From: an uncultured Candidatus Berkelbacteria bacterium
Lineage (GTDB): Bacteria; Patescibacteriota; UBA1384; CAILIB01
Assembly (NCBI GenBank): GCA_903834195.1
Contig: CAILIB010000024.1
Coordinates: 1 to 39,494, forward strand
Direction of reading: 5' to 3'
DNA length: 39,494 nt
Made by a program: the position numbers and the translations under genes. Within the stretch, counting starts at the first letter, position 1, and every line of letters starts with the position of its first letter. Positions 4,231-37,212 of the stretch are shown here, one piece after another. The notes under the pieces are model-generated. The model was not told where the DNA came from. It made no database searches and saw nothing but the letters and a program-made list of their open reading frames with translations.

Positions 4231-4390
4231 TGTGAGTGTATATGGCAAGATTCGCAGATTGTTGGTGAGGTGTCTAATATTGGGCGGGGCGGAGTAGGTG
4301 CGTATATGTTCGCTAAATATAGCGGGACTCGATTATAGTTCGCTGCGCGAACGGGCAAGCATGCACATGGTACTCTCGTCCCTCCTGATT

Positions 4391-4476
4391 CCACTAAAAT
4401 ATGCCCCAATGATTACCTCTGCAGCACTATTCTATTCCAGTGCGAAGCCAGTAATCATTGGGGCATATTTTAGTGG
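4391..4476 (-). terminator. 25-bp perfect-stem hairpin with structured core at the 3' end of tRNA-Leu(TAA)
   Basis: CCACTAAAATATGCCCCAATGATTA (4391-4415) / TAATCATTGGGGCATATTTTAGTGG (4452-4476) enclosing 4416-4451. Confidence 0.75.
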
Positions 4477-9622: not shown

Positions 9623-9694
9623 GTACTCTATTAAACCTGTACAAACTGCAATTTTCTGGCATAGTTTTTCTTGTATTCGCATTACGTTTTGATC

Positions 9695-9770
9695 GATCTG
9701 TAGCTCAGGTGGTTAGAGCAACGCTCTTATAAGGCGTGGGTCCTGGGTTCAAGTCCCAGCAGATCGACCA
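9695..9770 (+). tRNA. tRNA-Ile(TAT)
   Basis: Acceptor CGATCTG/CAGATCG, anticodon loop CTTATAA, encoded CCA. Confidence 0.9.
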
Positions 9771-9805
9771 AATTAAAAGTACTCTTTGGAGTACTTTTAA
9801 TTTTG
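9751..9805 (+). repeat. 55-bp direct repeat copy 1 (tRNA-Ile 3' end plus terminator)
   Basis: aagtcccagcagatcgaccaaattaaaagtactctttggagtacttttaattttg repeated at 9923-9977. Confidence 0.95.
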
Positions 9806-9922
9806 CTAAAGAGATGGGACTTGAACAGGAAAGGGGTCGGGAAAACAATTGTTTTCCCGTGAAGGAGAGCAGCGAGTGAAATGAGTGATGAGAACCGTGG
9901 GTTCTCATCTGTGCTCAGGTGA

Positions 9923-9977
9923 AAGTCCCAGCAGATCGACCAAATTAAAAGTACTCTTTGGAGTACTTTTAATTTTG
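9923..9977 (+). repeat. 55-bp direct repeat copy 2
   Basis: Identical to 9751-9805. Confidence 0.95.
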
Positions 9978-34588: not shown

Positions 34589-34664
34589 TCCCCGGTAGCT
34601 CAGTGGTAGTAGCGTCTCGCTGTTAACGAGAATGTCGTTGGTTCGAATCCAACCCGGGGAGCCA
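34589..34664 (+). tRNA. tRNA-Asn(GTT)
   Basis: Acceptor TCCCCGG/CCGGGGA, anticodon GTT, encoded CCA. Confidence 0.95.
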
Positions 34665-34704
34665 AAAGAAAAGAAGTAGGCGGCTGCCTACTTCTTTTCT
34701 TTTG
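34663..34704 (+). terminator. Hairpin H1 with C(GGCT)G loop
   Basis: CAAAAGAAAAGAAGTAGGC-GGCT-GCCTACTTCTTTTCTTTTG. Confidence 0.8.
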
Positions 34705-34854
34705 TTTTACTCGAGAGGATTCGAAACCTGGTTCGACTCTGCCTAAACCTTTTGAGCGAAGCGAAAGCAGAGTTAGTGCAGTGCTTCTTCGCCGCTTCAC
34801 ATCACGAAGTGGTGAAAGGCGGAGAAAGCGAACGTTAGGAAACCCGGGGAGCCA
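34704..34854 (+). repeat. post-tRNA structured module, tRNA-Asn copy 1
   Basis: Ends in AACCCGGGGAGCCA, a copy of the tRNA-Asn 3' end; near-identical to 36900-37126 apart from a 76-bp indel. Confidence 0.85.
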
Positions 34855-34868
34855 CGAATTTTCACCAC

Positions 34869-34940
34869 GTTAAACTGGTGATTTTTCATATACTTAAACT
34901 TTTACTAACAGATCAAAAATGGTTCGAATCTAATCGGGAT
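34869..34940 (+). repeat. repeat X1
   Basis: gttaaactggtgatttttcatatacttaaactt..aacagatcaaaaatggttcgaatctaatcgggat; homologous to X2 and X3. Confidence 0.85.
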
Positions 34941-35001
34941 TATACCTGTAGAACCTGCATTATCAGATGCACTCGTTCAACCACATATGAGACTGTGAAT
35001 A

Positions 35002-36055
35002 CCTAAAAGATCACCCTCATATGGGACAAAATTGGAAGAGATACCTTCATTCAGCGCACCTCTTTCGTGAAGACCTTGCAAACCTCTCAAAGATTGGTAC
35101 AGGTGAAGGTATGCATACTCAACCTGAACGCGAGAAGATCCTCTTGTTTTGGAAAACTCATGGCCTTGCGGCCACCGCTGACGCTTTTCAAGTTTCCCGT
35201 GCAACGCTGTTCCGGTGGGAAAAGAATCCAACTCCACAGAAACGTGTCCGGCACACCCAAGTGCGTAGAGTCATTCCACCACGTATTCGTGCTGAACTCC
35301 TGAGACTTAAACTCCTCCATCCAGAGCTTGGCAAAGGACAACTCCAACCACTTCTCGCACGGTTCTGCAGCCAGGGTGGTATTGGTATTCCGTCTGAAAG
35401 TACCGTTGGGAGGTATCTAGGAGATTTGAGGAAGGAAGGAGTACTTGGGAAGCCAGTGAGGCTTCGCTTCCATGCTCGTACCGGGAAGCTTGTTGAGAAG
35501 CCAATCGAGAGAAAGGTGAAGCTCCGAAGAAACGGGTATGCACCAGGTGTCCCTGGGGATCTCCTGCAAGTTGATACGGTGGTTACCTTCATTAATGGCC
35601 TCAGGCGCTATACCGTGACGGCTATTGATCTGCCCTCCCGCTTCTCCTTTGCCTGGAGCTATACCTCCTTAAGCTCAGCCACCAGTACCGACTTCTTGAG
35701 GAAGCTCACACTAGCTGCTCCATTTCAGATTCACCGTATCCAAACGGACAATGGACTTGAGTTTCATGGCCTCTTTCAAGAGGCACTTCTTAAGAGTGGA
35801 ACCACCCAATTCTTTAACCGGCCAAGAAACCCAAAGCAGAATGCCTTCATTGAACGGTTCAACCGAACCATTCAAGAAGAGTTCCTCTACCGGAACACTG
35901 ATTCTCTAGCTTATGATCTTCCTGAGCACAACCTACGACTCATGGAATACCTCATCTATTACAATGCTGAGCGGCCACATACTGGCCTCAACAAGAAAAC
36001 CCCGCTAGAATATCTCCAATTAACCCCTTAGTCTCAAATAGGGTGGACGAGTACA
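35002..36055 (+). mobile_element. Second, diverged member of the same IS family (approximate ends)
   Basis: Left end CCTAAAAGATCACCCTCATATGGGAC, right end GTCTCAAATAGGGTGGACGAGTACA; intact transposase; no clear target duplication. Confidence 0.75.
35021..36031 (+). CDS. DDE integrase-core transposase
   Basis: LLQVDTVV / IQTDNGLEF / AFIERFNRTIQEEF; related to the 20350-21408 protein but clearly diverged. Confidence 0.9.
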   Translation: MGQNWKRYLHSAHLFREDLANLSKIGTGEGMHTQPEREKILLFWKTHGLAATADAFQVSRATLFRWEKNPTPQKRVRHTQVRRVIPPRIRAELLRLKLLHPELGKGQLQPLLARFCSQGGIGIPSESTVGRYLGDLRKEGVLGKPVRLRFHARTGKLVEKPIERKVKLRRNGYAPGVPGDLLQVDTVVTFINGLRRYTVTAIDLPSRFSFAWSYTSLSSATSTDFLRKLTLAAPFQIHRIQTDNGLEFHGLFQEALLKSGTTQFFNRPRNPKQNAFIERFNRTIQEEFLYRNTDSLAYDLPEHNLRLMEYLIYYNAERPHTGLNKKTPLEYLQLTP

Positions 36056-36900: not shown

Positions 36901-37126
36901 TTTTACTCGAGAGGATTCGAAACCTGGTTCGACTGCGACGAGTGAGTGAGAATAATTGTGTTTACATAATTATTTGAGCGAACGAGGAAGCTGTATTGCG
37001 AAGCAATACTCTGCCTAAACCTTTTGAGCGAAGCGAAAGCAGAGTTAGTGCAGTGCTTCTTCGCCGCTTCACATCAAGAAGTGGTGAAAGGCGGAGAAAG
37101 CGAACGTTAGGAAACCCGGGGAGCCA
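36900..37126 (+). repeat. post-tRNA structured module, tRNA-Asn copy 2 (with 76-bp insertion)
   Basis: Matches 34704-34854; insertion 36935-37010; ends in AACCCGGGGAGCCA. Confidence 0.85.
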
Positions 37127-37140
37127 CGTAAAATCATCAG

Positions 37141-37212
37141 GTTAAACTGGTGATTTTTCGTATACTCAAACTTAAACTAACAGATCAAAAATGGTTCGAA
37201 TCTAATCGGGAT
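37141..37212 (+). repeat. repeat X2
   Basis: gttaaactggtgatttttcgtatactcaaactt..aacagatcaaaaatggttcgaatctaatcgggat. Confidence 0.85.

Follow-up and report, generated by a model that had tools for sequence, protein, structure and literature searches.

How does an intact tRNA gene come to have its own 3' end repeated, in exact copy, on the far side of a short structured insert? The question is raised by the tRNA-Ile(TAT) locus of contig CAILIB010000024.1 (GenBank assembly GCA_903834195.1) from an uncultured Candidatus Berkelbacteria bacterium, which was analyzed at its full length of 39,494 nucleotides (nt) and is referred to here as the window. A preliminary description of this DNA had reported a 55-bp exact duplication at the gene, which is indeed present at the coordinates given, and had interpreted the repeats as attL and attR sites. 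Comparison with the other tRNA genes of the genome to which the window belongs (G000; 1.13 Mb in 46 contigs, 75.7% complete) and with a wider genome collection leads us to consider it somewhat probable that the insert belongs to a family of small non-autonomous mobile elements of the Patescibacteria, the members of which duplicate the target while the tRNA stays intact.

The tRNA-Ile locus

The exact direct repeat (9751-9805 = 9923-9977) has a start-to-start distance of 172 nt and is composed of the final 20 nt of tRNA-Ile(TAT) together with the subsequent 35-nt hairpin; without gaps it extends to 63 nt at 95% identity. Between the repeats lie 117 nt which hold no gene of their own. In the following, X denotes the gene end which is the target, X' the antisense arm, and X'' the second copy of the gene end which stands after the core. 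The parts of the locus are:

9694..9770, + strand: tRNA-Ile(TAT), intact, with the T-loop target X, GTTCAAGTCCC, at 9747-9757
9771..9805, + strand: hairpin 1, terminator-like, directly after CCA; right part of the 55-nt repeat
9816..9826, + strand: X', the 11-nt exact reverse complement of tRNA-Ile positions 53-63 (extent from per-position statistics)
9827..9922, + strand: type 2 structured core, with hairpins 9838-9846/9851-9859 and 9887-9896/9900-9909 and right end GTGA
within 9838-9859: GGGAAAACAATTGTTTTCCC palindrome of the core
9887-9909: GATGAGAACC/GGTTCTCATC hairpin of the core
9923..9942, + strand: X'', second copy of the tRNA 3' end, from T-loop to CCA
9943..9977, + strand: hairpin 2, identical here to hairpin 1

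The contents of the insert that had been named in the preliminary description, i.e., GGGACTTGAAC, a palindrome and a second hairpin, were located at 9816-9826, 9838-9859 and 9887-9909, respectively. What had been missed is the antisense relation of GGGACTTGAAC to the tRNA-Ile T-loop: it is the exact reverse complement of the T-loop/T-stem sequence at 9747-9757. The insert folds better than 200 out of 200 shuffled sequences (z -3.7), and the fold is a good one with X' and X'' closing it. Chance is ruled out as the source of this layout because the insert outperforms all of its shuffles, because it has relatives behind other tRNAs, and because the layout is found in dozens of unrelated genomes.

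Units behind the tRNA genes of the genome

Covariance models gave 41 tRNA matches in G000, and ARAGORN identified 42 distinct genes in the loci fetched. Most of these genes are directly followed by a long hairpin with a stem starting in or beside CCA, and behind many of the hairpins X' (antisense to the T-arm of that same tRNA) is followed by a structured core and then by X'', to which a second hairpin is often added. X'' is a copy of the 3' strand of the T-stem and of the acceptor, often through CCA. Units of this kind, with at least three unrelated cores, stand behind about 19 of the 42 tRNA genes, a figure which is approximate as several contigs break just downstream of a tRNA. Contigs C2, C16, and C43 end shortly 3' of a tRNA gene, as is to be expected if these repeats break assemblies.

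A search for the insert after other tRNAs, as had been suggested, recovered relatives with E values down to 8e-24: the type 2 core of the Ile unit also stands behind Glu-CTC, Pro-TGG, and Ser-GGA and, in degenerate form, behind a Met tRNA. Inspection of the Val, Leu, and Asn loci agreed with the earlier statement that these share the layout with a different core, and the phenomenon does extend beyond one repeat family, with unrelated cores set in one layout. The type 1 core, which is unrelated to type 2, was found behind Ala, Arg-GCG, Asn, Asp, three Leu, Met, Ser-CGA, Trp, and Val-TAC tRNAs, and also at contig ends adjoining other tRNAs; it occupies 17 sites in G000 and nine in G003, a genome of the same family, essentially all of them behind tRNAs. 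The type 3 core is located behind Leu-TAA in G000 and is common in G001.

Alignment of 11 type 1 sequences gave a three-helix fold in which 95% of cells are paired and 14 out of 29 pairs show compensatory changes, a level which was not reached by any of 500 shuffles or by any slid register. For type 2, RNAalifold returned the first hairpin as the sole consensus helix, and two motifs, AAAGGGGTCGGGAAA..TTTCCCG and AACCG.GGG, are near-invariant over 42 sequences; to judge from these alignments it is by sequence that type 2 is held together. Searches of the window and eight element loci against Rfam (4227 families), permissive threshold included, gave no convincing family besides tRNA, and neither the rtT model nor the intron catalytic-core models matched the cores at gathering score.

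Distribution across genomes

The exact type 2 pattern was identified in at least 113 stretches of the genome collection, nearly all from Patescibacteria, with hosts that include Kaiser-, Taylor-, Nomura-, Moran-, Colwell-, Jorgensen-, Wolfe-, Harrison-, and Berkelbacteria, among others; the viral contigs, phages, and plasmids searched gave no match. Within the class of the window, the covariance model found type 2 in 14 out of 55 genomes, in a patchy distribution. Type 1 was limited to two out of 41 genomes, namely G000 and one other of its family. A local assembly artefact, which had been named as a possible refutation, is unlikely because the architecture recurs across many independent assemblies.

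Approximately 60% of the type 2 matches read (49 out of 83) lie just 3' of a tRNA on the same strand. Further sites, with the parts in the same order, are the 3' ends of rpsI, rpmG, and rplL and the 5' ends of fusA, typA, dinB, and murD; at the latter four the core points away from the gene. At protein genes up to 63-64 nt can be duplicated, among them bases beyond the gene end that are host-specific and not conserved. Four type 2 cores of G023 (L076, L082, L087, and L090) are not at tRNAs and are followed by a hairpin; here the 3' arm of a preceding stem-loop abuts the core where X' would stand. A further unrelated core with the same T-loop antisense arm was observed behind tRNA-His in G048 (L284), while the tRNA-His of G049, from the same genus, carries type 2.

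Anatomy of the arms

Across the 64 tRNA cases compared, the per-position agreement between X' and the local tRNA is 84-100% at positions 53-63, about 50-56% at 64-66, and no more than background from 67 on. For X'' the agreement is 55-59% over positions 57-59, 89% at position 60, and mostly 94-100% between 61 and CCA; it usually has GTGA in place of the GTTC of positions 53-56. A likeness to integron attC sites (AAC...GTT) was dropped on account of this GTGA. The right edge of the duplication varies, giving lengths of about 10-64 nt. Since X' matches 53-63 while X'' starts near 57-60, X' spans a junction in the uninterrupted target; on these per-position profiles it is an 11-nt antisense of the insert-free sequence, reaching about 7 nt to one side of the junction and 4 nt to the other.

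Both arms follow the gene at which they stand. X'' fits its own tRNA with a mean of 13.5 out of 15 positions, versus 8.8 for other tRNAs, and X' fits its own tRNA at 10.4 out of 13, versus 8.4, despite the likeness of T-loops. The match of X' to X is closer than its pairing with X''. An in-register inverted duplication of the whole gene end was rejected as the rule, as the offset between hairpin and X' ranges from -11 to +23 and is 0 in just six out of 51 cases; because offsets are spread so widely, the perfect register at the Ile locus is a coincidence.

Evidence for insertion and movement

Orthologous sites are empty or differently occupied, which supports insertion. The tRNA-Ile(TAT) of G003 is followed by the hairpin only. 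In G001 the gene is followed by a type 3 core, which is unrelated, and the duplication there is a separate one of about 29 nt that extends 8 nt past CCA. The interval from Leu-CAG to Phe holds a unit in G000 and neither hairpin nor unit in G003. Within one genus, a unit stands behind tRNA-Met in G026 and none in G034, with both Met genes in the same order.

Near-identical cores at different tRNAs of one genome suggest that cores change place and take on a new address. In G016, a single edit separates the cores at three tRNA loci (Gln, Arg, and one other), and their X' and X'' follow the local gene. The nearest type 2 core lies within the same genome in 13.5 out of 46 cases, versus 0.8 after shuffling (maximum 4.2); the same-target figures of this comparison were not used as they are inflated by the few genomes present in both collections. 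When G000 and G003 are compared at one and the same tRNA, their type 1 cores are not mutual nearest relatives. The inclusion in the copy of the host's non-conserved bases past the gene end argues for a fresh target duplication rather than an imported att core.

Under the mobile-element interpretation, the elements would be non-coding units of about 100-250 bp which land mainly in the T-loop/3' end of tRNA genes and sometimes at other conserved gene ends. On insertion the gene end would be duplicated, so as to give an intact gene with its hairpin in front of the element and a surplus X'' after it, and the left border of each element would be a short antisense copy, X', of the stretch of target that spans the junction. 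We infer that the copies move as DNA; the duplication would arise on insertion, and X' would be made anew from the target, at the time of insertion or shortly afterwards. The observations demand that each new target supply the arms.

Several observations weigh against mobility. There is no mobility gene in or beside the Ile unit, and neither an excised form nor a mobile intermediate was seen. The type 1 structure is conserved with compensatory changes, which would be needless for parasitic DNA unless the structure serves mobility. X' is often imperfect in type 1, and the own tRNA is the (joint) best match of X' in just 28 out of 49 loci because T-loops are alike. Finally, the identity of X'' stays at 94-98%, which fits youth or selection alike.

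Alternative explanations

The strongest competitor, which we nevertheless regard as unlikely, is a functional regulatory or processing RNA linked to the tRNA, in which X' would pair either with the T-arm, misfolding the precursor, or with X'', freeing it, in the manner of a switch. The type 1 fold with its strong compensatory backing, the good fold of the Ile insert closed by X' and X'', and the retention of X' at about 90% over 11 nt all speak for such an RNA. In most cases, however, a terminator-like hairpin separates the tRNA from the core, X' fits X better than X'', and at orthologous tRNAs the unit is missing or the core is an unrelated one. Upstream of fusA, typA, dinB, and murD the core faces away, so that it has no cis action on that transcript, and units at protein genes copy host sequence, which disfavors a purely tRNA-centered RNA function.

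The attL/attR interpretation in its full form describes a mini-island that is moved by a tyrosine recombinase, e.g., an XerC-like host enzyme acting in trans, with a separate element lineage for each target. The 3' ends of tRNA genes and the ends of conserved genes are classical integrase sites, and the units occupy sites of these types. All 12 of the core-bearing genomes tested carry an XerC-like tyrosine recombinase; being universal, this enzyme is uninformative as to co-occurrence. The part of the original proposal which stands is that a duplicated tRNA 3' end brackets a structured insert between direct repeats; as recombinase attL and attR sites these are putative, and no recombinase gene adjoins the locus. 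This explanation is quite improbable given the near-identical cores at different tRNAs within one genome and the variable length of the duplication, with host-specific bases outside the conserved sequence, and it leaves the target-specific arm X' unexplained. Very doubtful, finally, is the view that no dedicated element exists and that replication template switching at palindromes (T-arm, terminator hairpin) makes direct as well as inverted copies and picks up structured DNA from a different tRNA locus, which would suit the direct-inverted-direct order, a layout common to unrelated cores, and an inverted segment that can reach 19-23 nt into the acceptor (L096, L100, and L118), but not the sharp end of X' at position 63 in most copies, without gradual decay, the lack of register between hairpin and X', or one conserved core across a phylum.

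Candidate enzymes and a possible guide

Of the enzyme families tested, the XerC-like tyrosine recombinase alone occurs throughout the 12 core-bearing genomes, and a host enzyme of this kind acting in trans is a possible candidate. Reverse transcriptase (RVT_1) was not found in the core-bearing genomes G000 (75.7% complete), G016 (91%), and G037 (86%), the incompleteness of which may hide one. The IS110 DEDD transposase was detected in none of the 12 core-bearing genomes (control positive in four out of 14), and likewise TnpB (PF07282) in none (control positive in six out of 14). These three families were rejected as an explanation, being absent from the core-bearing genomes tested. The Y1 transposase is patchy, occurring in seven of the 12 and absent from G000, G003, G023, G039, and G050.

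We further propose, tentatively and as a rather doubtful extension, that X' may be a working address, i.e., an 11-nt guide, either RNA or folded single-stranded DNA, that would pair across the target junction with 7 nt on the left and 4 nt on the right. The core would be a scaffold for a host enzyme and, with the target copied at each insertion, the element would re-address itself, the T-loop being a common landing site.

Comparison with known systems

In Escherichia coli the tyrT repeats, which give rise to rtT RNA, form a unit of about 170-180 bp behind a tRNA with the 3'-terminal 19-20 nt or so of that tRNA, and the RNA can be released from the transcript. The likeness to our units lies in the size, the place behind a tRNA, and the copy of the tRNA 3' end; tyrT differs in being a single locus of plain tandem repeats without an antisense T-loop arm or a set of cores shared by many tRNAs. 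With the islands and satellites that integrate into tRNA genes our units share insertion at the ends of tRNA or conserved genes, restoration of the gene, and duplication of its 3' end, but they carry neither integrase nor cargo, the duplication is variable, and the antisense arm is target-specific. A structured non-coding end with short target-matching stretches is shared with IS110/IS1111 (bridge or seek RNA) and IS200/IS605-TnpB, in contrast to which the antisense arm of the present units is an uninterrupted 11 nt and their direct repeat is long. The 11-nt antisense stretch across the junction, with 7 nt to the left and 4 nt to the right, resembles the internal guide sequence or exon-binding site of group I and II introns, but the core is only about 70-150 nt, has no Rfam match, and is preceded by a complete tRNA, so that splicing is not needed. 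Miniature inverted-repeat transposable elements (MITEs) and REP-BIME repeats are also small, repeated, non-coding, and hairpin-rich, but here X' and X'' come from the local target and differ at each site, and there are no fixed terminal inverted repeats as in MITEs. The architecture was not found described in Rfam, in the viral, phage, and plasmid collections, or in open-access full text (subscription papers and preprints being outside the search); judged by these sources, it looks like an undescribed class of very small mobile element.

Other units in the window

The window carries further units and long hairpins behind other tRNA genes:

21611..21653, - strand: hairpin 1 after tRNA-Val(TAC)
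21471..21606, - strand: type 1 unit after tRNA-Val(TAC), with X' 21593-21606, core 21481-21595, and X'' 21471-21480
21915..22145, - strand: long hairpin and type 1 unit of tRNA-Leu(CAG), with core 21928-22038 and X'' 21915-21924
34663..34854, + strand: hairpin and type 1 unit of tRNA-Asn, with X' 34715-34728, core 34726-34836, and X'' 34841-34854
36998..37108, + strand: the Asn type 1 core again, as a duplicate that contains a palindromic sub-insert
4322..4476, - strand: long hairpin and type 3 unit of tRNA-Leu(TAA), with X'' CGAGTCCCGC at 4322-4331

Two IS481-like transposase genes (DDE type by eye) are located at 20350-21408 (- strand) and 35021-36031 (+ strand), each downstream of a tRNA that has a unit (Val and Asn), with inverted ends like GATCACCCTCATATGAGAC. 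They were rejected as drivers of the units, as each has inverted repeats of its own and the units at other sites do without them. The region 3' of tRNA-Asn is present in two copies (34700-34950 and 36950-37200) which flank the second transposase, and the palindromic sub-insert of the second copy also occurs at L074 (contig C26 of G000). The very long hairpins at 4391-4476 and 22060-22145 have counterparts behind Leu, Ser, and Arg tRNAs elsewhere in G000; their stems differ, the conserved apex GTCCTCG...CTGCGGAG is common to all and has no Rfam match, and they are possibly another small element or a processing signal.

Implications

Such units stand behind about half of the tRNA genes of G000, and the Patescibacteria, whose genomes are small, form a very large bacterial group. 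Duplicated tRNA ends in such genomes are not assembly errors. If mobile, the units would be among the smallest target-adapting elements known and would offer a model for the harmless occupation of essential genes, in which the gene is kept whole and the surplus end is shifted behind the insert. The sharp 11-nt antisense arm leads to a testable prediction on target choice and, should X' indeed act as a guide, these would be guide-programmed mobile elements without an enzyme of their own.
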